The notes under the pieces are model-generated. The model did no database searches. It was not told the origin of the DNA and saw only the letters and a list, made by a program, of their open reading frames with translations. From Hyphomicrobiales bacterium (GTDB lineage: Bacteria > Pseudomonadota > Alphaproteobacteria > Rhizobiales > Rhizobiaceae), in the NCBI GenBank assembly GCA_900472785.1, contig UCJH01000028.1:45031-109030 (forward strand): a DNA stretch of 64,000 nucleotides. Direction: 5' to 3'. The stretch's first letter is position 1, and each line of letters begins with the position of its first letter. Of this stretch, positions 46,704-63,889 are shown one piece after another. The position numbers were made by a program, and so were the translations under genes.

Positions 46704-46712
46704 CTCTTGCCC

Positions 46713-47594
46713 TCAGCCATAATGAACCCGTTTCTCTACGAAACGGAACTGGAAGGCTGTCAGCGCAATTACGATGATCATCAGGATGACGGATTGCGCC
46801 GCCGAAGATCCCAGGTTGAGATTGACGAAGCCATCATTGTAGACCTTGTAGACCAAGGTCTCCGTTGCCTTTGCCGGACCGCCGCCCGTGACCGAATGGA
46901 TAATGCCGAACGTGTCAAAAAAGGCATAGACGGTGTTGACGACCAGGAGGAAAAACGTTGTTGGCGCAAGAAGCGGAAAGACTATGGTCCAGAAGCGCCG
47001 GTTGCCGCGCGCGCCATCGATTGCCGCAGCTTCGATGAGCGATTTCGGAATGGCCTGCAGTCCCGCCACGAAGAACAGGAAATTGTAGCTGATCTGCTTC
47101 CAGGCGGCCGCCACAACCACGAGCGCCATTGCCTGATCGCCATTCAGCAGCGGGTCCCAAGCAAAACCGTTGCGCCGAAGCAGGTAAGCGAGTGTTCCCA
47201 TGGCTGGATTGAACATGAAGAGCCACAGCATTCCGGCGACGGCAGGCGCGACCGCATAGGGCCAGATCAAGAGTGTGCGATAAAAGCCCTGTGCTTTAAC
47301 AACCTTGTCGGCGGCGGTCGCCAGAAGCAGCGCGATACCCATCGAGACGATGGCAGTCAAAAGGCTGAAGACGACAGTCACCTGAAGAGCATGGATATAG
47401 TTAGGGTCAGACAAAACATTCTTGAAGTTGGCAAGTCCGACGAAGCCGCTCTTGAGGCCAAACGGGTCCTGGCGCACCATCGATTGGTATAGCGCCTGAC
47501 TGGCAGGCCAGAAGAAGAAAATCAGCGTCAGCACGATCTGCGGGGCCACCAGCAGGTAGGGCAGGATCTTGTTGGGAAACGCAACAGTATGCAA
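46713..47594 (-). CDS. ugpA: sn-Glycerol-3-phosphate ABC transporter permease
   Basis: 293 residues from a TTG at 47594, chosen because GAAGGATGAAG lies just before it and because UgpA proteins begin shortly before [17 protein letters not shown]. The longer frame to 47663 runs into the intercistronic hairpin. There are six membrane helices and the EAA loop [23 protein letters not shown]. It is the partner of UgpE. It starts 88 bp after ugpB, with a strong hairpin between them. Confidence 0.88.
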
Positions 47595-47630
47595 AGCTTC
47601 ATCCTTCCGGCAACGGGGCTGTGAACGCGA

Positions 47631-47669
47631 GATCCTATGCCGCCCGCGCGAGGCGAGCGGCATAGGATC
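47631..47669 (-). promoter_or_regulatory. Intercistronic hairpin between ugpB and ugpA
   Basis: A perfect 13-bp inverted repeat (GATCCTATGCCGC at 47631-47643 and its complement at 47657-47669) encloses a 13-base loop, 12 bp after the ugpB stop. It has no T-run, so it is more likely an mRNA-stabilising or partial termination element that raises binding protein levels over permease levels. Confidence 0.6.
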
Positions 47670-47681
47670 GGATGCCGTGCC

Positions 47682-48989: not shown

Positions 48990-49452
48990 GATTTCCTCCA
49001 CTAATGAAATAGAATGCAGTTGTTCTGTATTTCCCGTGCCAGTCCTCCTCGACCGACACGCAATCCATTGGGCTTAGGATGGCATCGCCGCCGTCAGCCT
49101 TTCCGAAAATCACATAGAGGCGAAGTGGTCGTTGTCCAGAGATTGTCGCAACGCGAACGCCTCGTAATCAGCTGGAAATGGCGCCTCCACCCCGGTTTTT
49201 GCAATCGTGTGCAAATGCTGCATCAGACGGGCTGGCCTGTCAAACTCTTTCGTTCTGAAATATTGTGAAGGACATCAGATGTGTCCTTGCACGCAATTGC
49301 AAAAATGTGCGACCGTCAATTGTTCTTGCAAAGTCCACGGCGAAACTCTGCAATAATTGATTCTGCCAATTTCGTCAGAGGAATTGTTTTTCCCAAACTT
49401 CAAGGCGAATGGCGCAAGGTGCTTAGAAACTTGATACCATCGACTGTCTCGG
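48990..49452. other. Upstream region of ugp with repeated TGCAA half-sites
   Basis: No gene is seen. TGCAA or close forms occur at 49200, 49210, 49219 (TGCAT), 49298, 49327 and 49349. The first three are spaced by 9-10 bp, on the same face of the helix. They may be binding sites for a regulator of ugp or of the Nudix gene. Confidence 0.4.
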
Positions 49453-50168: not shown

Positions 50169-51344
50169 TCAGACCGCGACAGGAGTAAGCCAAGGTTGAT
50201 CTTCAGCAGCCGTGCTATCGACCACTGCGTCCACGAATGCCACGCCTTTCAGGCCATCATAAGCGGTCGGAATATCGCGCCCGATGGCGGTTGGTTGGCG
50301 CTCATCATGCTTGGCGCGAATCGCCTCGGCAAAACCCGCATAGAGATTTGCAAAGGCTTCGAGATATCCTTCAGGATGACCGGGAGGCGTACGCGTGCGA
50401 ACTTTTGCGGCCTCGGATAGACCGTCGGCGCCGCGTTTGATGATTTCGGTGCGACTGTTGAGACGCGCATGGATGAGCTCGTTCGGCTGCTCCTGAAACC
50501 AGGTCAGCGATGCCTTATCACCGAACACCCGCAGCCGGACGCCATTGGACGAGCCGAGCGCTACCTGCGACGACCAGAGAAGTCCACGCGCGCCACCTTC
50601 ATACCGCAGCATCACGTGGGCGTTGTCGTCGAGGGCGCGGCCTTCCACGAACGTGGCAAGATCAGCTGTCAGGGAATCGAGCTTAAGCCCCGAGACGAAA
50701 CCGGCAAGGTGATAGGCGTGGGTGCCGATATCGCCGATCGAACCGCCGCGGCCGTTCTTCTTCGGATCGGTTCGCCAGGCTGCCTGTGCGTTTCCTTCGC
50801 TTTCGATCGCGGTCGCCATCCATTCCAGGGGGTATTCAACCTGGATTGTCCGGATCGTTCCGAGTTGCCCGGTGGAAACCATATGCCTGGCTTCATGGAT
50901 CATCGGATAACCGGAATAGGTATAGGTGACGCCCATGAAGCGCCCCGTCTCGCGAACGAGTTTTTCGAGCGCAATGGCGTCTTCGAGGGTCGCCGTCAGC
51001 GGCTTCTCGCAGATCACGTCGAACCCGGCTTCCAGAAATGCCTTGGCGATCGGGAAATGGGTGAAATTCGGTGTGCAGATCGCCACCGCATCGATGCGGT
51101 CTTCACGCGCACTTTCGCCGGCGATCATGGCGCGATAGTCGTCGTAGGATCGTTCTGCGCGCAGACCTTCATTTGCAGCGAAAGCATGTCCGCGGGCCGC
51201 ATCGACGTCGAACGCGCCCGCGACCAGATTCCAGTGTCTGTCCTGGCGGGCAGCAATACGATGGATGTTGCCGATGTAGGCGCCGCTGCCGCCACCGACC
51301 ATTCCAAGGCGGAGAGGTCTTTGCGAAGTGAAGTTTGACGTCAT
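50169..51344 (-). CDS. Gfo/Idh/MocA-family NAD(P)-dependent oxidoreductase
   Basis: 391 residues. The Rossmann start is LRLGMVGGGSGAYIGNIHR, and the family Lys lies in VICEKPLTA; the central domain includes GDIGTHAYHLAGFVSG with the usual D-x-x-x-H pattern. Relatives oxidise or reduce hydroxyl groups on sugars and cyclitols. It is the last gene of a four-gene reverse unit (IolD-type, SDR, TIM-barrel, this gene), three bases after the TIM-barrel gene. A second, IolG-like member is on the other arm, so two dehydrogenation steps or two stereoisomers may be handled. Confidence 0.87.
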   Translation of the reverse strand: MTSNFTSQRPLRLGMVGGGSGAYIGNIHRIAARQDRHWNLVAGAFDVDAARGHAFAANEGLRAERSYDDYRAMIAGESAREDRIDAVAICTPNFTHFPIAKAFLEAGFDVICEKPLTATLEDAIALEKLVRETGRFMGVTYTYSGYPMIHEARHMVSTGQLGTIRTIQVEYPLEWMATAIESEGNAQAAWRTDPKKNGRGGSIGDIGTHAYHLAGFVSGLKLDSLTADLATFVEGRALDDNAHVMLRYEGGARGLLWSSQVALGSSNGVRLRVFGDKASLTWFQEQPNELIHARLNSRTEIIKRGADGLSEAAKVRTRTPPGHPEGYLEAFANLYAGFAEAIRAKHDERQPTAIGRDIPTAYDGLKGVAFVDAVVDSTAAEDQPWLTPVAV

Positions 51345-51346
51345 GA

Positions 51347-52408
51347 TTATCCTCGATCAAGTCCGAGCATGGCTCGATTGGCGTCTCTGTTTGCGCCTGA
51401 TTTTACGAAATCATCGAAGGCGCGATCCGCCACCCTGATGATGTGGTCCCGGATGAATTTTGCGCCCTCGGCGGCGCCGTCCTCCGGATGCTTGATGAAG
51501 CATTCCCATTCGAGGACAGCCCAGCCGTCAAAGTCGTAGGTTGCAAGCTTCGTGAAGATCGCGCCGAAATCCACCTGACCGTCGCCAAGCGAGCGGAAAC
51601 GGCCGGCACGCTTCGACCAGGGCTGGAAGCCGCCATAGGCGCCTGTCTTGCCGTTCGGCCGAAACTCGGCGTCCTTGACGTGGAACATCTTGATCCGCTC
51701 GTGGTAGTGATCAATGAATTCCAGATAATCGAGCGCCTGCAGCACGAAATGGCTCGGATCGTAGAGGATGTTGCAGCGTGGATGATTGCCGACACGCTCC
51801 AGGAACATCTCGAAGGTCAGCCCGTCATGCACGTCCTCGCACGGATGAATCTCGAAGCAGAGGTCGACGCCCTGTTCATCGAAGTCGTTCAAGATCGGCG
51901 TCCAGCGTTTCGCCAGCTCGTCGAACGCCTCCTCGACCAGACCTTCCGGCCATTGGGGATAGGGATAGAGATATGGCCAAAGCAGCGATCCTGTGAAACT
52001 CACATGCCGATCGATGCCGAGATTGCGGGACGCGCGGGCCGCAAATCGCATCTGCTCCTCCGCCCAGGCGCGCCGCGCTGCCGGGTTGTTGTGAACATGC
52101 GCCGGGGCGAAGCTGTCCATGATCTGGTCATGAGCCGGGTGCACGGCGACGAGCTGACCGGTGATGTGTGAACCAAGCTCCGTCACCTCAAGGCCGCTTT
52201 CCGCAAGCACACCCTTCAGGTCGTCGCAGTAGGTCTTGCTCTCGGCCGCCTTCTTCATGTCGATCAGGCGGTTGTCCCATGTGGGTATCTGGACCCCGGC
52301 GAATCCTCTTGCCGCCACCCATTTCGAGAGGTCGGGCAGCGAGTTGTAGGGGGCATCATCGGCCGCGAATTGGGCAAGATAGATGCCCGGTCCCTTCATC
52401 GTTTTCAT
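51347..52408 (-). CDS. Sugar phosphate isomerase/epimerase-type TIM-barrel protein
   Basis: 353 residues of the AP-endonuclease-2 TIM-barrel fold (IolE, IolI and sugar epimerases). Likely metal ligands are in CFEIHPCE (Glu), ILYDPSHF (Asp and His), MFHVKDAEF (His, Asp) and AVLEWEC (Glu). The ATG at 52408 follows AGGTGAAAC. In an inositol pathway this place would be taken by IolE (2-keto-inositol dehydratase) or IolI (inosose isomerase), but it is longer than both, so its role is left open. It is joined on both sides by genes fewer than ten bases away. Confidence 0.82.
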   Translation of the reverse strand: MKTMKGPGIYLAQFAADDAPYNSLPDLSKWVAARGFAGVQIPTWDNRLIDMKKAAESKTYCDDLKGVLAESGLEVTELGSHITGQLVAVHPAHDQIMDSFAPAHVHNNPAARRAWAEEQMRFAARASRNLGIDRHVSFTGSLLWPYLYPYPQWPEGLVEEAFDELAKRWTPILNDFDEQGVDLCFEIHPCEDVHDGLTFEMFLERVGNHPRCNILYDPSHFVLQALDYLEFIDHYHERIKMFHVKDAEFRPNGKTGAYGGFQPWSKRAGRFRSLGDGQVDFGAIFTKLATYDFDGWAVLEWECFIKHPEDGAAEGAKFIRDHIIRVADRAFDDFVKSGANRDANRAMLGLDRG

Positions 52409-52415
52409 GTTTCAC

Positions 52416-53234
52416 CTATTCAGCGAGGGCTGTTGCTGGAGCAGGGGGGCCGCCATCATAGGCTCCCCAGACCGATTGGTCGAAATGAACGACCGAACCC
52501 GTCATCATTCCGGAATCGTCGGATGCAAGGAAAAGAACGGCTCGCGCGACCTCCTCGGGCGCGAGGATGCGTCCGAACGGTTGAGCGGCCGATGCCTTGG
52601 CGAGCCAGTCTGGATCGGCGCCATGATAGTCGCGCTGAACGCGATCTTCGCCGTCAGACGCCATCCAGCCGATATCGAGCTGGTTCACCCTGATCTGGTT
52701 GCGCATCAACGCATATCCGGAGTTTCGGGTCAGTGTCGCCAATGCTCCCTTGGAAGCAGAGTAGGGTGCCAGAAAGGGTTGCCCGGCGTGCTCCGATGTC
52801 GATCCGATGTTGATCATGCTGCCTTTGACGCCGTCGCGGATCATCAACCTGGCCGTCTCCTGCATGAGGAAGAATGGCGCACGCACGTTGATGGCAAACA
52901 TGCGGTCGAAGAGATCCGGCGTCGAGTTCAGGAGATTGCCGCGATCCGTGAGACCGGCCGCATTGACCAGAATATCGATCCTGCCGAACGCGCCATCGGC
53001 TGCGGCAACCACGGCTTGGCAGTCCTCCACTTTCCCAAGGTCGGCCGGAATGAAGATCACAGGTACGCCGGTGTCGCGGCTTACTGCGCTGGCAACGGCG
53101 TCTCCCTTATCGCGATTTCGTCCGCAGGTGACGATGCCTGCGGCGCCCGCTTCGGCAAAGAGCCGCGCAATTGCCGCACCTAAGCCCTGTGTGCCACCGG
53201 TGACGACGGCAATTTTTCCTTCGATCCTGTTCAT
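52416..53234 (-). CDS. Short-chain dehydrogenase/reductase
   Basis: 272 residues from the ATG at 53234; upstream in-frame codons overlap the IolD-type gene. Cofactor motif TGGTQGLG (about 12-19), NAAG near 92, and catalytic Ser, Tyr and Lys in GSTSEH and YSASKG are all present. It is a cytoplasmic NAD(P)-dependent alcohol dehydrogenase or ketoreductase. It lies one base after the IolD-type stop and seven bases before the TIM-barrel start, so it works in the same pathway. The substrate is unknown. Confidence 0.88.
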   Translation of the reverse strand: MNRIEGKIAVVTGGTQGLGAAIARLFAEAGAAGIVTCGRNRDKGDAVASAVSRDTGVPVIFIPADLGKVEDCQAVVAAADGAFGRIDILVNAAGLTDRGNLLNSTPDLFDRMFAINVRAPFFLMQETARLMIRDGVKGSMINIGSTSEHAGQPFLAPYSASKGALATLTRNSGYALMRNQIRVNQLDIGWMASDGEDRVQRDYHGADPDWLAKASAAQPFGRILAPEEVARAVLFLASDDSGMMTGSVVHFDQSVWGAYDGGPPAPATALAE

Positions 53235-53235
53235 G

Positions 53236-55086
53236 TCAGACGCCCACACGCTGTTTTGCGCGAATTTTCTCCTGATCGGCGCGTGCCTTCTGCACACTTT
53301 CCCGGTCGGAAACTTCCGGCACACCGACGTCCCAATCCGCGTCACCCGGAACCCAGGCATAGGCGTCGGTCACCAGGGTCACAATCGTCGTTCGGTCGGT
53401 CGTCTGCGCCCACTCCATTGCGGTTTTGAGATCGGCAAGGCTTTCGCAGCGACGCGCGAGGGCTCCCATGGATTCCGCATGTTTTACAAAGTCGACGGCG
53501 AAAGGCTCCTTCACGCGGCAGTCCTTGATAAGGTTGTTGAAGCCGGGCACACCCTTAAACTGCTGCAGGCGGTTGATGACGGCATAGCCGCCGTTGTCGC
53601 AGACGACGACGATCATCTTGTGGCCCGACAGAACAGTCGAATAGATATCGGAATTCATCATCATATAGGTGCCGTCGCCGATCATGACGATCGGCGTACC
53701 GTCGCCGGCCTTCGCCATCGCATGCCCCCAGCCAGCGGCGATTTCGTATCCCATGCAACTGAAGCCGAATTCGCAATCGAACGTGTTGGGATCCTTGACG
53801 CGCCAGCCTTTCGTCACTTCGCCGGGCGTTCCGCCGGCGGCGGCGATAACCGTATCGTTTGGCTTGGACGTTTCGTTGACGATCCCGATGACCTGGGCAT
53901 AGGTCGGAATCGGGCCATTGGTGATTGTCTGATGCTGATCAAGCAGCTTGTTCCAATCGGCAAACAGCGATTGAGCTTTTGGAAGTAGCGTCGGATCTGC
54001 GGTCCAGTCACCGAGCGCTTCGTCGAGTTCAGTCACGGTCTCCAAGGCGTCTCCGACGACGGCCAAAGCGCGATGCTTGACGGCGTCAAAGCGTGCAGCG
54101 TTGATCGAAATGAATTTGGCGTCCTGCCGGAAGGCGGTCCACGAGCCGGTCGTGAAGTCCTGCAGGCGTGTGCCGATCGCAAGAATGACATCGGCTTCAC
54201 CGGCAAGGGCGTTGGCGGAGGTTGAGCCGACGATGCCGATCGGGCCTGCATGAGCAGGATGATCGTGCGTCAACGCCCCTTTCCCCGCGATCGTTTCGAC
54301 GATCGGAACGCCACGCTTTATCGCAAACTCGGCGACCTTTTCTTCAGCCAGCGAATAGCGCACGCCGCCGCCGGAGATGATGAGTGGCTTTTTTGCGGAT
54401 TTCAGAAGCGCGGCCGCTTGGGCAAGCTTGTGCCTGTCTGCACGCGGACGCGGCACGGACCACAGGGTTGGCTCGAAGAACGCGGCCGGATAGTCGAACG
54501 CGATCTCCTGCGTATCTTGCGCGAGGCCGATGAATGCCGGGCCGCAGTCGGCAGGATCGAGCATGGCCGCAATGGCCTGCGGCAGGGATGAGATGATCTG
54601 TTCCGGCAGGACGATGCGATCCCAATAGCGGCTGACCGGCTTGAAGGCATCGTTGACAGTGACGGTCGGATCATTGAAGTGCTCGACCTGCTGCAAGACC
54701 GGATCCGGGATGCGATTGGCGAACGTGTCACCAGCGATCAGCAGGACCGGCAGTCGATTTGCATGCGCGGTACCGGCAGCCGTGATCATGTTGATCGCGC
54801 CGGGACCAATCGAGGCCGCTGCGACCATCAGTTGGCGACGGCGCTTGGCCTTCGCGAACGCGATCGCCGCGAGCGCCATGGATTGCTCATTCTGCCCGCG
54901 CCATGTGGGTAACGTGTCCTGAACCGCCTCCAATGCTTCGGAAAGGCACGTGACATTGCCGTGCCCGAAGATGCCAAACACGCCCGCAAATAGCGGCAGG
55001 CGTTCGCCGTCGATCTCCGTGAACTGGTTGCATAAATAGCGTACGAGCGCCTGCGCCATCGTCAGGCGTACAGTGTTCCGGGACAT
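53236..55086 (-). CDS. iolD: IolD-type TPP-dependent cyclohexane-1,2-dione hydrolase
   Basis: 616 residues from the ATG at 55086, which follows GGGAGGAGACCGG. It is a three-domain thiamine diphosphate enzyme. The cofactor-activating Glu67 is in RGQNEQSMA, and the TPP/Mg motif is GDGTYMMMNSDI with VVVCDNGGYAVINRLQ. Length and blocks such as GVFGIFGHGNVTCL and DPVLQQVEHFNDPTVTVNDAF match IolD, which opens the ring of 3D-trihydroxycyclohexane-1,2-dione to 5-deoxy-glucuronate. It is the first gene of the reverse arm. IolB and IolC, which normally follow this step, are not in the window. Confidence 0.87.
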   Translation of the reverse strand: MSRNTVRLTMAQALVRYLCNQFTEIDGERLPLFAGVFGIFGHGNVTCLSEALEAVQDTLPTWRGQNEQSMALAAIAFAKAKRRRQLMVAAASIGPGAINMITAAGTAHANRLPVLLIAGDTFANRIPDPVLQQVEHFNDPTVTVNDAFKPVSRYWDRIVLPEQIISSLPQAIAAMLDPADCGPAFIGLAQDTQEIAFDYPAAFFEPTLWSVPRPRADRHKLAQAAALLKSAKKPLIISGGGVRYSLAEEKVAEFAIKRGVPIVETIAGKGALTHDHPAHAGPIGIVGSTSANALAGEADVILAIGTRLQDFTTGSWTAFRQDAKFISINAARFDAVKHRALAVVGDALETVTELDEALGDWTADPTLLPKAQSLFADWNKLLDQHQTITNGPIPTYAQVIGIVNETSKPNDTVIAAAGGTPGEVTKGWRVKDPNTFDCEFGFSCMGYEIAAGWGHAMAKAGDGTPIVMIGDGTYMMMNSDIYSTVLSGHKMIVVVCDNGGYAVINRLQQFKGVPGFNNLIKDCRVKEPFAVDFVKHAESMGALARRCESLADLKTAMEWAQTTDRTTIVTLVTDAYAWVPGDADWDVGVPEVSDRESVQKARADQEKIRAKQRVGV

Positions 55087-55152
55087 CCGGTCTCCTCCCA
55101 TGGATCATGTTTTCCGAACGGTACGAAATATTAATTGACAAAGCAAGAGTTC

Positions 55153-55168
55153 CGCAACAATCATTGCA
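55153..55168. promoter_or_regulatory. Predicted RpiR operator in divergent iolD/iolG region
   Basis: CGCAA-CAATCA-TTGCA differs in one base from TGCAA-N6-TTGCA, which recurs at 59509, 59593 and 62991. Its 15-base core is the exact reverse complement of the site at 59593. It lies between the two divergent operons, 24 bp before the IolG-type start. Confidence 0.6.
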
Positions 55169-55191
55169 AAAATTCAATTGGGAGGATCCTG

Positions 55192-56199
55192 ATGCTAAAA
55201 ATCGCAGTTCTCGGCTGCGGCCGTATAGGTCGTATGCATGCCGAAAACATCGCGGCCCACCCGCGCGCAAGCCTTGCAGGTGTGTTTGACATCCATCGCC
55301 CTGCTGCGGACGAAGTCGGCGGCAAGCATGGCGTGACGGTCTTCGATTCGGCGGACGATGTCTTTTCTAGCGCGGCCGTCGATGCCGTGCTCATCGCAAC
55401 CTCAACGCCAACACATGCCGACTTTATTGAAAAAGCGGTGGCGGCCGGCAAGCCCATCCTGTGCGAAAAGCCGATCGACCTTAGCCTCGAGCGTGTTCAG
55501 CGTTGCGCGCAGACGATAGGCGAAACGGCAGTCCCCATCATGCTCGGTTTCGTCCGGCGCTTCGATCCAGGACACCGGGCGGCGCGAGATGCCATTCGCT
55601 CCGGAGACATCGGAGACTTGCATCAGGTTGTTATCACCTCTCGCGATCCAGGCATGGCCCCGGTCGCTTACATGGAAGCTTCCGGCGGCATCTTCCGCGA
55701 CATGACTATTCACGATTTCGACATGGCCCGGTTCATTCTCGGCGAAGAAGTGACGGAGGTCTCCGCCGTGGGAAGCCGGCTTCTAAATCCATCGCTGATG
55801 GAGCGGCTGGGTGATTACGATACGGTGACGGTGGTACTGGCGACCGCAACGGGCAAGCAATGCATCATCAACAACTCGCGCCAGGCGGCTTACGGGTATG
55901 ATCAGCGTGTCGAGGCGCTCGGCACCAAGGGCATGGTCATCTCCGAAAACCGCCGCCCCAATATGACGACGCTGCATCGCGCTGATTTTACCGGGAGTGG
56001 TGCCCCGCTCCTGAACTTCTTCATTGACCGCTATGCAGAGGCGTTCTCGGCCGAGATTAGCGCCTTCGTGGAGGCGATAGAGAGTGGAAATCCTCCTGAA
56101 GTCGGGTTCGAAGACGGTCGAAAGGCATTGGTCCTGGCCGAGGCCGCGATCAAATCGGTGGCCGAGGGCCGCACCGTGAAAACCAACGAGATCGGATAA
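55192..56199 (+). CDS. iolG: Inositol 2-dehydrogenase-type oxidoreductase
   Basis: 335 residues from the ATG at 55192, with GGGAGGATCCTG before it. The NAD-binding start is IAVLGCGRIGRMHAENI. Lys93 in CEKPIDL, Asp170 and His174 in FRDMTIHDFD match the Lys-Asp-His catalytic set known for inositol dehydrogenase, and length fits IolG. It oxidises myo-inositol or a related cyclitol to the 2-keto form with NAD in the cytoplasm. It is the first gene of the forward arm and is four bases before the aldehyde dehydrogenase gene. Confidence 0.85.
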   Translation: MLKIAVLGCGRIGRMHAENIAAHPRASLAGVFDIHRPAADEVGGKHGVTVFDSADDVFSSAAVDAVLIATSTPTHADFIEKAVAAGKPILCEKPIDLSLERVQRCAQTIGETAVPIMLGFVRRFDPGHRAARDAIRSGDIGDLHQVVITSRDPGMAPVAYMEASGGIFRDMTIHDFDMARFILGEEVTEVSAVGSRLLNPSLMERLGDYDTVTVVLATATGKQCIINNSRQAAYGYDQRVEALGTKGMVISENRRPNMTTLHRADFTGSGAPLLNFFIDRYAEAFSAEISAFVEAIESGNPPEVGFEDGRKALVLAEAAIKSVAEGRTVKTNEIG

Positions 56200-56203
56200 A
56201 TCC

Positions 56204-57640
56204 ATGTACCAGAATTTCGGACTTTTCATTGGTGGACAATGGCGCACCGCCTCCGACCGGGCGACCGCGGACGTGCTCAGTCCCGTCACACAGGAAGCGC
56301 TCGGCAGTGTTCCCGTTGCCACCGCCGCCGATACCCAGGATGCCTTGACTGCAGCGCGCGTTGGCTTCGATGCCTGGCGGACAACGTCCGCCTTCGCAAG
56401 AGCCGATGCCCTGCATCGGATCGCCGATGAGATGCTTCGACGCACGGACGAGGCGAAAAGGATGATATCATCGGAGACAGGCAAGCCCATCGCACAGTCG
56501 GAGCGCGAATGGGGCCTGTCGGTAGACCAGTTCCGATGGTTCGCGGAAGAGGCCCGTCGCATCTACGGCAGGATCATCGAGTCCCGCGTGCCGGGCGGCC
56601 GTTTCGAGGTCTCGCGCGAGCCCGTCGGTATCGTCGGCGCTTTCACGGCCTGGAATTTCCCAGCAGCACTCGTAGCACGCAAGGCAGCACCCGCTTTGGC
56701 GGCTGGATGCTCTATCATCATCAGGCCTTCGACCCAGACACCGGGCGTCGCCATGGTCATGGTCGACTGCATGCGTGCGGGCAATTTGCCCGACGGGACC
56801 GTCAACCTGGTCGTCGGACCGACGGCGGCGACCTATACGCCAATCATGGCGGACAAGTCGGTACGGAAAGTTTCGTTGACCGGATCGACTCGCGTTGGCC
56901 AGCAGATGATCCGCGATGCCGCCGAAACTGTGAAGAAGGTATCGATGGAGCTCGGAGGCAATGCGCCGCTGATCGTCTACGATGATGCCGATCTCGAGCT
57001 TGCGCTCAACGTCTCCGTCCCGACGAAATTCGCCAATTCCGGACAGGTGTGTGTTACCCCCGACCGGTTCTTCGTCCATGAGAGCCTTCACGATGCCTTT
57101 GTCGACGGATTTGTTTCGCGTGCAAACGCGCTGAAACTCGGTGACGGGCTGGATCCTTCCGTGCAGATGGGGCCGCTGATCAACGGCGGACGGCTTGCGG
57201 AGATCGAGGCGATCGTTGCGGACGCCGTTAAAGCTGGCGCGCGTGTCGTCGCAGGCGGAGAACGTGCCTCCGAGTTCAATGCCGGTCATTTCTACAAGCC
57301 GACGGTTTTGGCCGATGTCACCGACGATATGAAGGTTTTCGCCGAGGAGAATTTTGGCCCGATCGCCGCGATCACGCGGTTCAGGGATGAAGACGAAGTT
57401 CTGGGACGCGCCAATGCCTGCGACATGGGTCTGTCTGCCTATGCGTTCACACGTTCGCCGGACCGCGCCCGTCGGACAGTCGCTGCCTTGAAGGCGGGCA
57501 TGGTCGGAATAAACAGCTTCGCACTTGCCGCATCGGAAGCGCCATTCGGCGGCACCAATCATTCCGGGATGGGCCGCGAAGGCGGTATCGAGGGTATCAG
57601 CGACTACCTCGACACCAAGCTTGCACAGATTGTGTTTTGA
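56204..57640 (+). CDS. NAD-dependent aldehyde dehydrogenase
   Basis: 478 residues. Catalytic residues are Asn151 (TAWNFP), Glu249 (MELGGNAP) and Cys283 (NSGQVCVTPDRF). The Lys that normally holds the cofactor in KPS/KPA motifs is Arg174 here (IIIRPSTQTP), which may shift cofactor preference. It is not of the CoA-acylating MmsA/IolA type, whose Glu is absent, so it does not simply replace that inositol-pathway enzyme. It would oxidise an aldehyde, perhaps a semialdehyde made by the neighbouring aldolase. It lies 12 bp before the aldolase gene. Confidence 0.88.
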   Translation: MYQNFGLFIGGQWRTASDRATADVLSPVTQEALGSVPVATAADTQDALTAARVGFDAWRTTSAFARADALHRIADEMLRRTDEAKRMISSETGKPIAQSEREWGLSVDQFRWFAEEARRIYGRIIESRVPGGRFEVSREPVGIVGAFTAWNFPAALVARKAAPALAAGCSIIIRPSTQTPGVAMVMVDCMRAGNLPDGTVNLVVGPTAATYTPIMADKSVRKVSLTGSTRVGQQMIRDAAETVKKVSMELGGNAPLIVYDDADLELALNVSVPTKFANSGQVCVTPDRFFVHESLHDAFVDGFVSRANALKLGDGLDPSVQMGPLINGGRLAEIEAIVADAVKAGARVVAGGERASEFNAGHFYKPTVLADVTDDMKVFAEENFGPIAAITRFRDEDEVLGRANACDMGLSAYAFTRSPDRARRTVAALKAGMVGINSFALAASEAPFGGTNHSGMGREGGIEGISDYLDTKLAQIVF

Positions 57641-57652
57641 GGGGCAGCGAGC

Positions 57653-58462
57653 ATGATCAAGAACAAGTTGAAAGAAATCTGGGCCGGGGGCCGTCCGTCA
57701 ATCAATGGCTGGCTGTCGATCGGCAATGCGTTTACCGCGGAGATCATGGCCGCGCAGGGCTATGACTCGATCGCCATCGACGTCCAGCATGGAGCCTTGG
57801 ACTACAGCTCCGTGCTGCCGATGTTCCAGGCGATGCGCGCTTCCGGCGTTGTGCCGATGGCGCGCGTGCCCTGGCTAGAGCCGGGTATCATCATGAAGGT
57901 GCTCGATGCTGGCGCTTACGGCGTCATCTGCCCGATGGTCAACACCGCCGCGCAGGCAGCCGAATTCGTGAGCTACGTCCGCTACCCGCCCCATGGCCAG
58001 CGTAGCTTCGGCCCGACGCGCGTCAGCTTCGCCGCCGGCGCGAACTATGCGGCCGAGGCGAACGGCGAGATCCTCGCGTTTGCGATGGTCGAGACAAAGC
58101 AGGCGATGGACAACCTTGATGGGATAGCAGCGACGCCGGGATTGGACGGCATATACGTCGGGCCGGCCGATCTGACCTTCAGCCTTACGCAGGGCCGCCT
58201 TGCACCCGCGTTTGATCGTGAAGAGCCCGAGATGATCGAAGCGCTGAAGACCATTGTTGCCGCATGCAAGCGAAACAGCATCCGCGCCGCTCTCCACTGC
58301 GGTACGCCGGAATATGCGGCCCGCGCCATTGGCTGGGGTTTCGACATGACCACCGTCTCCGGCGACAGCCGACTTTTGGCCGCCGCCGCGGCCGCAAGCG
58401 TTGCGAAGTTTCGCGACGCCGTCGGCCATATCGCGGGCGCAGACCAGAAGGGGGCATATTGA
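57653..58462 (+). CDS. HpcH/HpaI-family class II aldolase
   Basis: 269 residues. Catalytic and binding residues are His46 in AIDVQHG (the more usual motif is D-x-E-H, with Gln45 here), Arg71 (ARVPW), Glu147 (AMVETKQA) and Asp173 (VGPADLTF). Such enzymes split 2-keto-3-deoxy or 4-hydroxy-2-oxo acids into pyruvate (or a hydroxypyruvate-type ketoacid) and an aldehyde, with a divalent metal. Together with the aldehyde dehydrogenase it can convert a ring-opened ketoacid to central metabolites. Its stop overlaps the next start by one base. Confidence 0.87.
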   Translation: MIKNKLKEIWAGGRPSINGWLSIGNAFTAEIMAAQGYDSIAIDVQHGALDYSSVLPMFQAMRASGVVPMARVPWLEPGIIMKVLDAGAYGVICPMVNTAAQAAEFVSYVRYPPHGQRSFGPTRVSFAAGANYAAEANGEILAFAMVETKQAMDNLDGIAATPGLDGIYVGPADLTFSLTQGRLAPAFDREEPEMIEALKTIVAACKRNSIRAALHCGTPEYAARAIGWGFDMTTVSGDSRLLAAAAAASVAKFRDAVGHIAGADQKGAY

Positions 58463-59430
58463 TGCCGCACATCCTTGTCGCCGGAAAGTTGCACCCCGCA
58501 GGCGTAGCACTTCTCAAAAGCGCTGCGGGCGTCACCTTCGACTACGTCGAAGAGGTATCCGAACAATCATACCGTCCCTTGATCGGCAAGGCCGATGCGC
58601 TCGTGCTGCGCACGCAGCCCCTATCGGCGCCAACGATCGCTGAAGCAGCTTGCCTCAAGGTCGTCTCGCGCCACGGTGTCGGCTACGACGCCGTTGACCT
58701 GCCTTTGCTCAACGAACGTGGCATAGCCCTCACGATCGTCGGGGACGTCAATTCCGTTTCGGTTGCCGAGCATGCCATGATGTTGATTCTGTCGGCCGCC
58801 AAGCGCGTTCTTCGGGGTGACCGTGCCGTGCGAACGCCCGCCGAATGGGGCTGGCGAAACCGTCTGGAAGCGGAGGAGATTTCCGGAAAACGCCTGCTGA
58901 TATTAGGATTTGGCCGCATCGGACGCCACCTCGCGCGAATGGCGGGGGGATTCGGGATGGAGATCAAGGCCTTTGACCCATATCTGCAAGCTCAAGGTTG
59001 GCCCGAAGGGCAGGTTCAGCCCGTGGACGATCTCATAAGCGGGTTGCAGTGGGCCGACGTCGTCTCCGTCAATATTCCCAAGGCTGACCGGCCGATCATC
59101 GGCGAGGTTGAGCTTGCGGCAATGAAGTCAGGCGCCATACTCGTCAATACTGCCCGCGGTGGGGTCGTCGATGAGAAAGCCTTGGTCGAGGCTTTGAAAT
59201 CCGGCCGTCTGGGCGCCGCCGGGCTCGATGTTTTCGATGACGAACCGCCAGGGGAAGACAATGATCTTCTTAGCTTTGACCAAGTCGTTCTCTCGCCGCA
59301 TATTGCGGGACTGACCCGCGAATGCGGAGAACGGATGGCGGTGGCGTCCGTACAGAACGTTCTCGATTACTTCTCAGGTCAAATCGATCGCAAATTGGTC
59401 GTCAACGCCGTTGCGTTGCACCAGCTCTAG
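58462..59430 (+). CDS. D-2-hydroxyacid dehydrogenase (SerA-like)
   Basis: 322 residues from the ATG at 58462; the open frame upstream shadows the aldolase. The NAD site is LILGFGRIGRHLA (about 146-158). The catalytic triad is Arg232 (NTARGG), Glu261 (DDEPP) and His280 (SPHIAG). The family reduces 2-ketoacids or oxidises D-2-hydroxyacids. No ACT domain follows, so it is not a regulated phosphoglycerate dehydrogenase. In this operon it may reduce a ketoacid released by the aldolase. A strong hairpin follows 25 bp after the stop. Confidence 0.87.
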   Translation: MPHILVAGKLHPAGVALLKSAAGVTFDYVEEVSEQSYRPLIGKADALVLRTQPLSAPTIAEAACLKVVSRHGVGYDAVDLPLLNERGIALTIVGDVNSVSVAEHAMMLILSAAKRVLRGDRAVRTPAEWGWRNRLEAEEISGKRLLILGFGRIGRHLARMAGGFGMEIKAFDPYLQAQGWPEGQVQPVDDLISGLQWADVVSVNIPKADRPIIGEVELAAMKSGAILVNTARGGVVDEKALVEALKSGRLGAAGLDVFDDEPPGEDNDLLSFDQVVLSPHIAGLTRECGERMAVASVQNVLDYFSGQIDRKLVVNAVALHQL

Positions 59431-59455
59431 TCATTCTTCGCTGAATGCAATGAAC

Positions 59456-59485
59456 GCTGGATGCCGGAGACAATCCGGTTCCAGC
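59456..59485 (+). terminator. Hairpin after the iolG-aldolase operon
   Basis: GCTGGA (59456-59461) pairs with TCCAGC (59480-59485), and CCGGA (59464-59468) pairs with TCCGG (59474-59478), around a 5-base loop. There is no T-run, so termination strength is uncertain. Confidence 0.45.
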
Positions 59486-59508
59486 GCTATCCGCGTTGCG
59501 ACGTTCAC

Positions 59509-59524
59509 TGCAATGAAAATTGCA
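59509..59524. promoter_or_regulatory. Predicted RpiR operator upstream of sugar ABC promoter
   Basis: TGCAA-TGAAAA-TTGCA, a perfect match to the TGCAA-N6-TTGCA pattern. It lies about 36 bp before the -35 element of the sugar ABC operon. Confidence 0.6.
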
Positions 59525-59559
59525 TCAGATAAAAACAGCACGGAACGTTGAAAAATACT

Positions 59560-59588
59560 TTGACTCATTGCCAATTGCTGTTTAGCTT
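59560..59588 (+). promoter_or_regulatory. Predicted promoter of the sugar ABC operon
   Basis: TTGACT (59560-59565) and TAGCTT (59583-59588) are separated by 17 bases. An operator-like site starts five bases after the -10, over the expected transcription start. Confidence 0.45.
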
Positions 59589-59592
59589 GTTC

Positions 59593-59608
59593 TGCAATGA
59601 TTGTTGCA
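59593..59608. promoter_or_regulatory. Predicted RpiR operator at transcription start of sugar ABC operon
   Basis: TGCAA-TGATTG-TTGCA, a perfect match to the repeated pattern and the reverse complement of the site at 55153. Its place just after the -10 element fits repression. Confidence 0.62.
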
Positions 59609-59704
59609 TAAACAGCAGTCATGGGACGGCAGAGGGTGCGCTGGGAGGCGATATCCGAGGAAAACTGCCGAACCCGAATTCAATTGTTTCATGGGAGGTA
59701 TGAG

Positions 59705-60781
59705 ATGGAACGACTGATCCGCGGCCTTTTGGCCACGACTATAATTTCCGCTGCAATGGGCGGCGCCGCATTTTCACAGGACAAGGCGAAGGTGTTCTTC
59801 CTTCTGCCAAACCAGACCACGATCCGCTTCGAAAGCCGTGACGCGCCGTTCTTTGTAGAGGCGATGAAGGAAAAGGCGCCCGACGTCGAAGTCGTCGTCC
59901 AGAATGCGCAGGGCGATCCGACCAAACAGCAGGCCCAGGTAGAAGATGCCATTGCTCAGGGCGCGAAGGCCATTCTTCTCACCTCCGCGGACGCAAATCT
60001 TGCAGCCGGCGGGCTCGCCGCCGCCGAGAAGGCGAACGTCCCCGTGGTCCTCTACGACCACGACGCAGTCGGCGGAAAAGCCGAAGCACATATCGTGTTC
60101 GATTCCCTGTCGGTTGGCCAGGCGCAGGGCAAACGCGCCGCTGAGCTGATCAGCGCAATGTCGAAGACACCGGTCAACGTCGCTCGCGTCAAGGGCAATC
60201 AGGGCGAGTACGGCACGGGTCAATACGAAAAGGGCCAGAATGAATTCCTGCAGCCGCTGATCGACTCCGGCAAGGTCAAGGTCGTCTGCGAACAGTACAC
60301 GCAGAATTGGGATCCGGTCCTGGCCCAGAACTTTGCCGAGGATTGCCTCACCAAGAACAACGGCGACGTCGATGTCTTTCTCGGGATGAACGACGGCACG
60401 ACGGGCGGTTCCGTCGCGGCGCTCATCTCCCAAGGCGCCAAGCCCGGCGACAAGCTCGTCACCGGTGGTCAGGACGCCACCGTGGAAGCCCTTCGCTACA
60501 TCGCTCAAGGCTGGCAGGATAACTCCGTCCTGAAGGACTTGAAGGTCCAGGCAACCGAAGCCGCCGAGGTCGTCGCGTCGATCGTCGCTGGCAAGGGCGT
60601 GCCTAAGGAACTGGTCAACGGTAAGGTCAACAACACCTTCATGGACGTGCCGGCGGTGTTCCTGCCTGTCAGCAATATCACCAAGGACAATCTCGGCGAC
60701 GTGGTCTCCAAGGGCGTTTGGACCTGGGCAGAAATCTGCAAGGGCATCGAAACGACCGACGTCTGCAAGAAAAACCTTTAA
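59705..60781 (+). CDS. Sugar ABC transporter periplasmic binding protein (XylF/RbsB type)
   Basis: 358 residues from the ATG at 59705, preceded by GGGAGGTATGAG; the signal peptide is cut after AFS (about residue 22). It has the family start KVFFLLPNQTTIRFESRDAPFFVEAM, then QAQVEDAIAQGAKAILLTSAD, VPVVLYDHDAVGG, and ends with a Cys-containing tail (WAEICKGIETTDVCKK). It binds a monosaccharide or cyclitol. Placement behind RpiR operators and beside cyclitol-type enzymes suggests an inositol-like ligand. Confidence 0.9.
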   Translation: MERLIRGLLATTIISAAMGGAAFSQDKAKVFFLLPNQTTIRFESRDAPFFVEAMKEKAPDVEVVVQNAQGDPTKQQAQVEDAIAQGAKAILLTSADANLAAGGLAAAEKANVPVVLYDHDAVGGKAEAHIVFDSLSVGQAQGKRAAELISAMSKTPVNVARVKGNQGEYGTGQYEKGQNEFLQPLIDSGKVKVVCEQYTQNWDPVLAQNFAEDCLTKNNGDVDVFLGMNDGTTGGSVAALISQGAKPGDKLVTGGQDATVEALRYIAQGWQDNSVLKDLKVQATEAAEVVASIVAGKGVPKELVNGKVNNTFMDVPAVFLPVSNITKDNLGDVVSKGVWTWAEICKGIETTDVCKKNL

Positions 60782-60858
60782 TTTTGGCCTTTGCGGCGGA
60801 GGAGGGCGGTTTGCCGCCAGCCTCCGTTTGCAAGGTCAAAAGCGTTTCGGAGGCTGAC

Positions 60859-61671
60859 ATGACCGCGACCGATAGCGGGGGTTTGGAGAACAAGTCCCTT
60901 CCACAGAAATCCGTGCCGCTCGTTTCGATGCGCAACATCCAGAAGTCGTTCGGCTCGGTCCACGCCTTGCGCGGCGCTTCCGTCGACGTTTATCCGGGCG
61001 AAATCGTCGCTCTCGTGGGAGACAATGGTGCCGGCAAATCGACCTTGGTGAAGGTGATGGCAGGCGTACACGCCGCTGACTCCGGAGATTTCGAAATTGA
61101 CAGCAAGCCGGCCAACATTAGAACGCCGGCCGATGCCACGGCGCACGGCATTGCCACGGTGTACCAGGATCTGGCTCTCTGCAACAACCTCGATGCCGTC
61201 CAGAACCTTTTTCTCGGGCGCGAACTCACGGGATCGAGCTTGTTCGGCCGGCGCATCCGCCGGGCCGAGTGCGAGGTGCGTGCGCGTGAGGTGATGACGA
61301 GAATGCGCTTAGGGAACTTGTCCCTAACACGGCCCGTGGGTGCGATGTCGGGCGGGCAGCGTCAGAACATCGCGATCGCAAGGTCGATTCTCTGGACACC
61401 GAAAGTCGTCATCCTCGACGAACCGACCGCCGCACTCAGCCACTCCGCGGCGCAGCAGGTTGCCGATTTAATCCGTGGTCTTGCCGATGATGGCTTGGGC
61501 ATCGTCATCGTCAGCCACGACATCCATCATTTCGTCGTCAACGCGACCGACCGGATCGAGGTCATGCGCCTCGGCGCCAACGCTGCGAGTTTCCGATCCA
61601 AGGACGTCACGGGAGAAATGGTCGTCAACGCAATGGTCGGCGGCAACGAAGGCGTCAATCTCGCCGGCTGA
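60859..61671 (+). CDS. Sugar ABC transporter ATP-binding protein (XylG type, single domain)
   Basis: 270 residues from the ATG at 60859, preceded by TCGGAGG. A single ABC domain: GDNGAGKST (Walker A), MSGGQRQN (signature), VVILDEPTAAL (Walker B) and IVIVSHDIHH (H loop). Most XylG/RbsA proteins have two fused domains, so this half-length form probably dimerises, like FrcA. It lies 77 bp after the binding protein gene. Confidence 0.92.
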   Translation: MTATDSGGLENKSLPQKSVPLVSMRNIQKSFGSVHALRGASVDVYPGEIVALVGDNGAGKSTLVKVMAGVHAADSGDFEIDSKPANIRTPADATAHGIATVYQDLALCNNLDAVQNLFLGRELTGSSLFGRRIRRAECEVRAREVMTRMRLGNLSLTRPVGAMSGGQRQNIAIARSILWTPKVVILDEPTAALSHSAAQQVADLIRGLADDGLGIVIVSHDIHHFVVNATDRIEVMRLGANAASFRSKDVTGEMVVNAMVGGNEGVNLAG

Positions 61672-61706
61672 TCAAATCCGCTTCCGTTTTTCAAGGAAAG
61701 AACATC

Positions 61707-62906
61707 ATGGCTTCCATTTCCACGACGGCCGCGCCGAAGCGGCGTACTTTCGGAGAACTTCTGAGCAGCGATCTCAGAGCTCTGCCCGTGGTCATCGCGC
61801 TCATCGCGTTGTGGATCTTTTTTTCAACCCAGAGCGATATCTTCCTTACGCCAAGGAATCTATCGAACCTGCTGCAGCAATCGACCGTCGTCGGCATCAT
61901 GGCGCTCGGCCTAATGTTCGTTCTCTTGGTGAAGGAGATCGACTTGTCGATCGCTGCGATCCACGGTGTCACATCTGTTCTGAGCGCGAAGCTTATCGTC
62001 GACTACGGATTTTCTCCATGGCTGGCACTTCCGGCCGCTATTTTGATCGGAGCCGCGATTGGCTCCTGTTCGGCGCGGTGGGTGAACTGGGTGGGCGTTC
62101 CCTCGTTCGTGGTCACGCTTGGACTTGGCTTGGCGCTCAACGGCATCCAATTGCTTCTGCTCCCTGCAACGGCGCGCTACGGACTGATGGGCACCGGTGT
62201 GGAATATATCGCCCAGACGACGATAGACGGGATGGGTGCCTGGATGACGTGGTTGATTGGCGTCGCGCTGCTCGCCAGCCTGATCCTCTCTGGTGTCGCC
62301 CGGCGCCGGCGCGCGGGTCTCGAGGTATCAACCCTTCACGGCGTCGTTCTTCCAATCGCGGGGGCGGGCGTGCTTGGCGCAATCGTCGTGCTGGTCCTGA
62401 ATGCCAACCAGGGAATTCCTCTGCCAGTTCTGATTTTCGTCTCCCTTCTCGGGATCGGTGGCTACGTCCTGAACGAAACTCAATTCGGTCTCTACCTTTA
62501 TGCAGTCGGCAACAATGACGAAGCGGCAAGGCGCGCCGGGATCAGGGTGCCGCTCATTCGCATGGCCGCGTTTGCGATCGCGGGAGGTATTGCTGCCGTC
62601 GCAGGCATCGTCGCTTCCTCCAGAACGCTCGGCGTCGGTGTCTTTTCCGGTGGCGGTGTCGGTGGTGGAACCCTGCTCCTGGAGTCAATCGCAGCGGCGG
62701 TGATTGGCGGCGTCAGCCTGTTTGGCGGCCGGGGCGCCATCCATGCCGCGCTGCTGGGAGCCTTGGTGATCGGCACGGTTCAAAACGGCCTCAATCTCAT
62801 GGGCGTCGAGAACGAAGTCAGGCTGATCGTAACAGGCCTTCTGCTGGTGCTGGCAGTCTCGATCGACAAGATCATCGAAAAACTGACCGGACAGCAATCG
62901 TTTTGA
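61707..62906 (+). CDS. Sugar ABC transporter permease (XylH type)
   Basis: 399 residues with about ten membrane helices. Family blocks are STVVGIMALGLMFVLLVKEIDLSI, VPSFVVTLGLGLALNGIQLLLL, AVGNNDEAARRAGIRV and GGVSLFGGRGAIHAALLGALVIG. It forms the channel for the binding protein and ATPase encoded just before. The length and long N-terminal part match XylH more than RbsC. Confidence 0.93.
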   Translation: MASISTTAAPKRRTFGELLSSDLRALPVVIALIALWIFFSTQSDIFLTPRNLSNLLQQSTVVGIMALGLMFVLLVKEIDLSIAAIHGVTSVLSAKLIVDYGFSPWLALPAAILIGAAIGSCSARWVNWVGVPSFVVTLGLGLALNGIQLLLLPATARYGLMGTGVEYIAQTTIDGMGAWMTWLIGVALLASLILSGVARRRRAGLEVSTLHGVVLPIAGAGVLGAIVVLVLNANQGIPLPVLIFVSLLGIGGYVLNETQFGLYLYAVGNNDEAARRAGIRVPLIRMAAFAIAGGIAAVAGIVASSRTLGVGVFSGGGVGGGTLLLESIAAAVIGGVSLFGGRGAIHAALLGALVIGTVQNGLNLMGVENEVRLIVTGLLLVLAVSIDKIIEKLTGQQSF

Positions 62907-62990
62907 TGGCTCGACACCGGGAATGAACGCACGTCCCGCCCGCTCTGTGACGGTTTTTCCATTGCCAACCTTTTGCAGTTCAGCGCATGA

Positions 62991-63006
62991 TGCAATGGAA
63001 TTTGCA
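62991..63006. promoter_or_regulatory. Predicted RpiR self-operator
   Basis: TGCAA-TGGAAT-TTGCA, a perfect match to the repeated pattern, ends 10 bp before the start codon of the RpiR-family gene, fitting autoregulation. Confidence 0.6.
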
Positions 63007-63016
63007 GGTATGAAGA

Positions 63017-63889
63017 ATGGCAGACATAGACCCCCCGCGCGACTACGAGGAATTCATCCGGCTGGTTCATGACCGCTACGACGGCATGAGCAAATCCTAT
63101 CAGAAAATTTCGGTGTACCTTACCCAGAGCCCGAACGATGTCGCCGTCCTGTCGGTTAATTCCATTGCGGAGCGCTGCGGCGTCCACGCGTCCAGTTTCG
63201 TGCGTTTTGCCCAGTCATTGGGATATGAAGGCTTCAAAGATCTCCAGGGTCTGTTCCAGCGCCGCCTCTCGACCGCCGCACCGGGTTTTGAAGCACGCAA
63301 GAAAGCGCTTGAAACGGAACTCGGAACACGGACGGACAAAAGCGAAGTTGGTTTTCTGAGGGATCTCGTCGTGCGCGATATCGCGTCCCTCCAGGATATC
63401 CTCTCGCAGATATCCGGTGGAGACCTGGCGACGGCAGTCGATCTTCTGGAAAAAAGCGAGACGATCTACCTAATCGGCCAATTGCGCTCGGCGCCTGTGG
63501 TTGAACTGCTGCGATATGTTCTGACCATGCTCGGGAAGCGTTGCGTCCTGCTTGATCCCGGCGGCGGGCTTGCGACTTACATGGCACGTACGATGAAGGA
63601 GAAGGACCTTCTGTTTGCCGTGTCATTCCGCTTCTATGCAACGGAAGTCGTCAACGTCGTCGAAGATGCGGCATCCCGGGGCATTCCGATTGTCGCGATT
63701 TCCGACAGCACATTGTCTCCACTCGCCAAATCGGCGACAGTTCTCTTCCCGGTCCCCGAGCACGAATATACATTCTCGCGTTCTCTCGCTGCGCCCATGT
63801 GTCTTGCGCAGGCGTTGACCGTTGCGCTTGCAAGCCGGCTGCAGGGCAGCGAGGATGACCCACGGATACCTATCGTGACCGGACAATAG
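63017..63889 (+). CDS. RpiR/MurR-family transcription regulator (IolR-like)
   Basis: 290 residues. The N-terminal HTH_6 domain (about 10-90) has SKSYQKISVYLTQSPNDVAVLSVNSIAERCGVHASSFVRFAQSLGYEGFKDLQ in consecutive blocks. The C-terminal SIS domain (about 130-260) has IYLIGQLRSAPVVELLRY and DLLFAVSFRFYATEVVNVV, which binds a sugar or cyclitol phosphate or keto form. RpiR-type IolR proteins repress inositol genes in rhizobia. Repeated TGCAA-N6-TTGCA sites at each promoter of the cluster and directly before this gene make it the probable repressor. Confidence 0.88.
   Translation: MADIDPPRDYEEFIRLVHDRYDGMSKSYQKISVYLTQSPNDVAVLSVNSIAERCGVHASSFVRFAQSLGYEGFKDLQGLFQRRLSTAAPGFEARKKALETELGTRTDKSEVGFLRDLVVRDIASLQDILSQISGGDLATAVDLLEKSETIYLIGQLRSAPVVELLRYVLTMLGKRCVLLDPGGGLATYMARTMKEKDLLFAVSFRFYATEVVNVVEDAASRGIPIVAISDSTLSPLAKSATVLFPVPEHEYTFSRSLAAPMCLAQALTVALASRLQGSEDDPRIPIVTGQ

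Follow-up and report, generated by a model that had tools for sequence, protein, structure and literature searches.

The window analysed here, a 64,000-nucleotide stretch of the 5.38 Mb draft genome of a soil bacterium of the Hyphomicrobiales (positions 45031–109030 of contig C111), contains at 50169–63889 a gene cluster that encodes enzymes of the IolD and IolG types and possesses neither iolB nor iolC. We consider it probable that the cluster encodes a second inositol-catabolic pathway with a non-phosphorylating, oxidative lower half. Its aldehyde dehydrogenase (ALDH), HpcH/HpaI aldolase and SerA-like dehydrogenase genes occur all together beside the gene of the ring-opening enzyme, IolD2, in 54 of 61 loci of relatives, and the arrangement is therefore not due to chance.

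Gene content, conservation and a repeated site

The cluster comprises twelve genes, taken from the list of open reading frames (ORFs), and four copies of a palindromic site:

50169–51344, minus strand: GfoA, Gfo/Idh/MocA oxidoreductase, accessory (PF01408/PF22725)
51347–52408, minus strand: TIM, xylose-isomerase-like TIM barrel, accessory or possible IolE stand-in (65% identical to Protein Data Bank (PDB) entry 8ro4)
52416–53237, minus strand: short-chain dehydrogenase/reductase (SDR), NAD(P)-dependent, candidate 5-deoxyglucarate 2-dehydrogenase (NF004847, 426.8 bits, cut-off 240)
53236–55086, minus strand: IolD2, thiamine diphosphate-dependent, trihydroxycyclohexanedione hydrolase type (TIGR04377, 812 bits, cut-off 715)
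55154–55167: GCAA-N6-TTGC site, divergent IolD2/IolG2 promoter region
55192–56199, plus strand: IolG2, inositol 2-dehydrogenase type (TIGR04380, 412.6 bits, cut-off 355)
56204–57640, plus strand: ALDH, non-acylating, SSADH-like, candidate 5-deoxyglucuronate dehydrogenase (PF00171, 511.6 bits)
57653–58462, plus strand: HpcH/HpaI metal-dependent 2-keto-acid aldolase (nearest solved structures SwHKA)
58459–59430, plus strand: SerA-like D-2-hydroxyacid dehydrogenase, candidate hydroxypyruvate reductase or 2-hydroxyacid oxidase (PF02826/PF00389)
59510–59523: GCAA-N6-TTGC site, upstream of the transporter genes
59594–59607: GCAA-N6-TTGC site, second copy upstream of the transporter genes
59702–60781, plus strand: sugar-type ATP-binding cassette (ABC) substrate-binding protein (PF13407; TIGR02634, 163.6 bits, below cut-off)
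60811–61671, plus strand: ABC transporter ATPase (reading of the translation, start chosen within the ORF)
61707–62906, plus strand: ABC transporter permease (reading of the translation)
62992–63005: GCAA-N6-TTGC site, upstream of rpiR
63017–63889, plus strand: RpiR/MurR-type regulator (PF01418 and PF01380)

The genes form a leftward run (GfoA, TIM, SDR and IolD2) and a rightward run (IolG2, ALDH, aldolase, SerA-like protein, the three ABC transporter genes and RpiR). Gaps within both enzyme runs measure −4 to 12 bp, and three longer ones span 105, 271 and 110 bp. The original prediction, made from the sequence of the window, had named an IolD type, an IolG type, a non-acylating ALDH (here SSADH-like), an HpcH/HpaI aldolase, a SerA-like dehydrogenase (here a D-2-hydroxyacid dehydrogenase), an SDR and a second Gfo/Idh/MocA protein, all of which were recovered; it did not mention the TIM-barrel gene, the ABC transporter genes (59702–62906), the regulator and the missing IolE gene. 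Its statement that the ALDH is not of the CoA-acylating mmsA type agrees with a score of 199.9 bits against the MMSDH model (cut-off 448.5); the score against TIGR01780 is 481.5 bits, below the cut-off of 646.35. The closest structures to the SerA-like protein are phosphoglycerate dehydrogenases and glyoxylate reductases.

Relatives were collected by a scan of genome contigs, and the best 80 of 226 were taken as loci (IolD2 73–94% identical). Among the matches listed, the nearest are from Rhizobium, with 94% IolD identity to Rhizobium sp. CF122 and 96.8% to a Rhizobium indigoferae plasmid. Neighbours were counted at the 61 loci that reach far enough on both sides, the other 19 being cut by contig ends, and presence was judged from ORF translations and identity thresholds, by which genes merged in a stop-to-stop reading may be missed. 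The ALDH is present in 56 of these 61 loci and the aldolase, the SerA-like protein and the SDR in 57 each, followed by RpiR (52), IolE (51), a further Gfo protein designated Gfo2 (51) and IolG2 (43). TIM and GfoA are each found in 25, pyruvate carboxylase in four and malonate semialdehyde decarboxylase (MSAD) in two, and classical IolB, classical IolC and MmsA in one locus each. With classical and other IolD types included in a tree of 122 sequences, IolD2 forms its own clade of 90 (support 0.985), and the hosts of the module are alpha-, beta- and gammaproteobacteria. The iolE gene lies between iolD and the SDR gene in five of six annotated plasmid loci, a Shinella locus being the exception; no IolE is encoded between IolD2 and the SDR in the window and its six nearest relatives. 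An unsupervised clustering of all ORFs from the 80 loci lumped 2316 ORFs in one group and was not used.

The site GCAA-N6-TTGC is conserved where IolD2 and IolG2 diverge, in the window as in its six nearest relatives. The window contains five copies (mean of shuffled sequences 1.85, with five reached in 5 of 100 shuffles), four of which fall in the gaps of 105, 271 and 110 bp, where about 447 of the 64000 possible starts lie; each of these gaps contains the site. Upstream of IolD2 (−130 to +30 of the estimated start) it is found in 73 of the 80 loci, or in 67 of 74 once the six relatives that suggested the motif are set aside. It ranks first of 1280 palindromes tried, the runner-up (44 of 80) being its own core.

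The RpiR protein of the cluster probably reads this site and would control the module independently of the classical iol set. IolR, the regulator of the classical pathway, is also of the RpiR type. The motif published for alphaproteobacterial inositol genes, GGAA-N6-TTCC, likewise is a palindrome of the form 4-6-4 (PMC2597717). It occurs three times in the window, at 1582, 16961 and 49380, and not within 50169–63889. The classical iol locus of the same genome contains one GGAA-N6-TTCC and no GCAA-N6-TTGC, and the module and the classical genes are thus probably under separate control.

A proposed oxidative route and its substrate

The upper half of the proposed route would be common to the classical one, with dehydrogenation by IolG, dehydration by IolE and ring opening by IolD to 5-deoxyglucuronate. 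This is the expected product of IolD2 because IolD2, IolG2 and the in-module IolE of Komagataeibacter rhaeticus (385 bits, cut-off 290) pass their equivalog cut-offs. An oxidative half would then replace the IolB isomerase, the IolC kinase and the phospho-aldolase, each of its reactions being predicted from gene content. The ALDH would convert 5-deoxyglucuronate to 5-deoxyglucarate, and oxidation at carbon 2 by the SDR or the SerA-like enzyme would yield 3,4-dihydroxy-2-oxoadipate, which the HpaI-type aldolase would cleave to malonate semialdehyde and hydroxypyruvate. Hydroxypyruvate would then be reduced to D-glycerate by the SerA-like enzyme, and malonate semialdehyde would leave through MmsA or, in some acetic acid bacteria, a decarboxylase. 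No IolE is encoded in the window cluster, TIM scoring 60.7 bits against TIGR04379 (cut-off 290), and in the present strain the dehydration would fall to TIM or to the IolE encoded at the classical locus.

The original prediction had proposed oxidation and ring opening, followed by direct aldol cleavage of a keto acid that carries no phosphate, instead of the IolB and IolC steps. That order is supported by the sequence analysis, with the addition that oxidation at C1 and C2 must precede the cleavage, because HpaI-type aldolases act on 2-keto acids. The replacement, however, holds here at the level of the cluster only, because a full classical iol set is present elsewhere in the genome: contig C28 carries iolB (325 bits), iolE (368 bits), iolD (929 bits) and iolC (407 bits, in a 696-residue frame), and MMSDH (mmsA) lies on contig C55 (655 bits). 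Such a set had been named beforehand as an account that could make the proposal unnecessary; it exists, but it leaves the cluster unexplained. IolD2 is 52.8% identical to the classical IolD of the same genome. The length of the iolC frame suggests an IolC–DUF2090 fusion of the kind described in PMC9007349.

Module genomes were assessed for IolC at 45 of the 80 loci, the other 35 being titled metagenome-assembled; IolB was assessed in 8 genomes, MMSDH in 8 and 14, and IolE in 12. IolC stays below the cut-off in four of these module genomes: Acetobacter malorum, A. senegalensis, K. rhaeticus and K. diospyri, all assemblies of unstated completeness. The same four show no match to IolB, which was found in all four other genomes tested. 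Each has one IolE above the cut-off, as IolE was found in 12 of 12 genomes. A scan of 150 Acetobacteraceae genomes gave seven with an IolD2 of at least 72% identity (one partial), and ten together with three other named genomes; IolC exceeds the cut-off in two of the ten, and both of these carry a second IolD, about 50% identical, on the contig of IolC.

The strongest alternative, possible although less likely than the proposed route, differs from it, with which it otherwise overlaps, in the substrate: the module would serve another cyclitol (the scyllo- or D-chiro-isomer, or a methylated or aminated inositol). IolD2 would then release a 5-deoxyglucuronate stereoisomer unsuited to IolB, which would explain the different lower half. 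IolC exceeds the cut-off in 41 of the 45 module genomes, including the present one, and the module thus often adds to a classical route, which is a point for this alternative. Gfo2 is akin to scyllo-inositol dehydrogenase (259 bits), its best match (281 bits) being an unassigned oxidoreductase. On the other side, the equivalog models passed by IolG2, IolD2 and the in-module IolE are those of myo-inositol enzymes, and the module is the sole recognised route in the four genomes without IolC. The substrate may be myo-inositol or one of these other forms.

Predicted products of the aldolase

The nearest solved structures to the aldolase are those of SwHKA (197 bits; GarL scores 128), and it is 39.6% identical to this Rhizorhabdus wittichii enzyme (PF03328). 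The SwHKA active-site positions His, Arg, Ser, Glu and Asp are conserved in 74 of 74 aldolase sequences, the window's included. SwHKA was crystallised with hydroxypyruvate, and its active-site residues, the Arg apart, were taken from the same report (PMC11194214). Unlike the module, the neighbourhood of the SwHKA gene comprises an SDR, an alpha/beta hydrolase and a cupin, and the position of Phe210 in SwHKA is occupied by His in 73 of 74 module aldolases. This His was considered as a mark of the module and dropped, being present also in the non-module relatives L100 and L101 and in the garD-linked L102. According to a review, C3 is always S in products of the aldolase family (PMC7610986). The keto acid expected from myo-inositol, worked out by hand, is 3S,4R, in which carbon 3 fits, whereas at carbon 4 the S,S products reported for the R. 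wittichii enzyme differ. All 12 of the 12 IolD2 genomes tested contain a gene of the DUF4147 family, which is of the glycerate-kinase type. Hydroxypyruvate is the predicted second product.

Evidence for malonate semialdehyde comes from gene context. The window cluster contains no gene for its disposal, mmsA being elsewhere in the genome. K. rhaeticus and K. diospyri have no MMSDH above the cut-off, and in both the ALDH, aldolase, SerA-like and Gfo2 genes are followed on one strand by further genes, a sugar porter of the major facilitator superfamily and a small terminal ORF. In K. rhaeticus this ORF matches the malonate semialdehyde decarboxylase 2aag (160 bits) and retains the catalytic residues Pro1, Asp37, Arg73 and Arg75; that of K. 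diospyri is 91% identical to it, the comparison with the PDB having been made for the K. rhaeticus copy only. In another Acetobacteraceae genome, G175, mmsA is the next gene after ALDH, aldolase, SerA and Gfo2, on the same strand and about 150 bp on, and a second mmsA lies near its other IolD. Among the 80 loci, an mmsA or MSAD homologue is found in three (L035, L076 and L083), mmsA lying near the ALDH in L035. Two unrelated enzymes for malonate semialdehyde beside the same genes are the best evidence for this product.

Several observations, in addition to the frequency of IolC in module genomes, weigh against the proposed route. Absence of IolC is not special to the module, because IolC also falls below the cut-off in 27 of 44 Acetobacteraceae genomes that contain only other IolD types. 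In two Acetobacteraceae genomes (G103 and G179) IolD2 and IolE are the only module genes recognised within about 19 kb. A third, G086, in which IolD2 lies on a contig of 6 kb, shows no MMSDH above the cut-off and no MSAD. MSAD homologues are encoded elsewhere, too, in all four genomes without IolC and in G003, G004 and G018 (7 of 52 genomes). Twelve further IolD2 loci contain the GCAA-N6-TTGC site upstream of IolD2 in six (L093, L095, L097, L098, L133 and L137) and do not in L094, L096, L134, L135, L136 and L138. Finally, a 63.9% identical relative of the aldolase is encoded by a gene that overlaps an enolase-superfamily gene, and a 47.3% identical one lies near galactarate dehydratase.

Because of these two contexts, pyruvate stays a possible product. 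After the same upper steps, 5-deoxyglucarate would be dehydrated to a 2-keto-3-deoxy acid, from which the aldolase would release pyruvate and malonate semialdehyde. A pyruvate carboxylase gene in four of 80 loci (50% threshold), annotated in one plasmid copy, also points this way. We nevertheless consider this variant unlikely: no sugar-acid dehydratase is annotated by the module in the six plasmid loci, the only ones searched for such a gene, TIM is present in a minority of loci, and the SerA-like gene, present in nearly all, would be left without an evident task. An explanation in which the cluster feeds only the classical pathway, with IolB and IolC finishing 5-deoxyglucuronate and the ALDH, aldolase and SerA-like enzyme serving an unrelated sugar-acid pathway, would suit the classical iolB, iolC, iolE and iolD genes and mmsA of the present genome but is very improbable given the four module genomes without IolC above the cut-off or an IolB match, the persistence of the three enzymes beside IolD2 and the site shared by all three longer gaps of the cluster.

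Accessory genes, known systems and occurrence

TIM is 65.0% identical over 349 residues (553 bits) to the 2-hydroxy-3-keto-glucal hydratase 8ro4. A paralogue on contig C73, beside a Gfo gene and apparent transporter genes, is 73.6% identical to 8ro4, and the TIM proteins of the module group apart from both. TIM and GfoA occur together in just 30 of the 80 loci and are therefore regarded as an add-on. The best PDB relatives of GfoA are 3v5n, 3dty and 7d5n, and it is 51.6% identical to the Gfo protein beside the C73 paralogue. Its pairing with TIM suggests a 3-keto-sugar reductase; a role as cyclitol dehydrogenase is equally possible, because 3v5n and 3dty fall in one clade with a scyllo-inositol dehydrogenase (PMC5969746).

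Of the 14 loci in which no IolE was recognised, 10 contain TIM, and two of the remainder are cut short. These loci come from few lineages, and the seven of their genomes that were tested all encode an IolE above the cut-off elsewhere. TIM may stand in for IolE, or may bring in substituted inositols. A fuller scheme, in which a kinase-free route of alpha-, beta- and gammaproteobacteria leads through 5-deoxyglucarate to malonate semialdehyde and hydroxypyruvate and TIM and GfoA handle glycosylated or O-methylated inositols in the IolE-less variant, is doubtful as a whole. There, IolE would be unneeded because oxidation next to the substituent followed by β-elimination would yield the IolD substrate directly. 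The four-enzyme O-glycoside route of Agrobacterium tumefaciens (GlycDH–OGE–HYD–Gfo; PMC10628242) resembles the TIM and GfoA pair in having a hydratase and then a Gfo protein, and differs in that no GlycDH or OGE was recognised among the twelve genes of the cluster. We infer that 8ro4 is the AtHYD of that study, whose authors call the hydratase evidence preliminary.

The module is a recurrent second inositol gene set, a variant of a pathway and not a new kind of system. It shares with the classical alphaproteobacterial pathway the IolG, IolE and IolD steps and malonate semialdehyde as predicted product, and differs in having no isomerase or kinase, in its ALDH, HpaI aldolase, SerA-like protein and SDR, and in its own regulatory site. 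The IolM/IolN/IolO inositol route of Thermotoga maritima also avoids IolB and IolC, but is not known to include an IolD-type step. No description of the proposed route was found in the open-licence PMC literature searched, including searches for 5-deoxyglucarate and related terms. If correct, it would add a kinase-free inositol pathway, give SwHKA-related aldolases a natural role and define another inositol regulon, marked by a separate site; it is directly testable in strains without another apparent inositol route. One survey counts a genome as inositol-catabolic when at least three of iolB, iolC, iolD and iolE occur together (PMC9430895). Strains with the module only, among them the two Acetobacter and two Komagataeibacter species named above, would score negative under that definition. 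In the accessible part of an article on other strains, including A. senegalensis 108B, inositol is named once, as a vitamin (PMC9729256). Another reports no inositol fermentation by one Acetobacter indonesiensis strain, whose module status was not checked (PMC13238706).

Loci with other IolD types were also inspected. In L139–L142 and L146–L148, from Acetobacteraceae genomes without IolC above the cut-off, the IolD is 51–53% identical to IolD2, and the ALDH, aldolase and SerA-like genes typical of the module were not found; these loci are perhaps a further IolC-less variant, and in L139 mmsA lies behind IolE. The sister clade of IolD2 (L143–L145, 56–57% identical) has no recognised module neighbours, L144 spanning only 3.7 kb.

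Homologues of each of the three ABC transporter genes of the cluster, at more than 50% identity, are found in 8 of the 80 loci. Next to the cluster, at 44809–49001, lie genes for another sugar-type ABC transporter, which encode a binding protein, two permeases and an ATPase; of these only the ATPase exceeds 50% identity in relatives, in 1 of 80 loci. The module is also carried by large enterobacterial plasmids, namely Klebsiella aerogenes pC9_001 (L096), a Pantoea plasmid (L095) and a K. pneumoniae plasmid (H122); that of K. aerogenes is typed conjugative and that of Pantoea non-mobilizable. Three records carry most of the query, and a search of the E. coli genome collection with the Klebsiella copy gave no match in 'near' mode. 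Pyruvate carboxylase genes lie in or beside the module in L093 (2006–5440) and in L026, L029, L038 and L048 of the 80 loci, perhaps for anaplerosis. An Acidiphilium multivorum plasmid carries a second SDR–iolE pair near the module (L094, 2919–4639).

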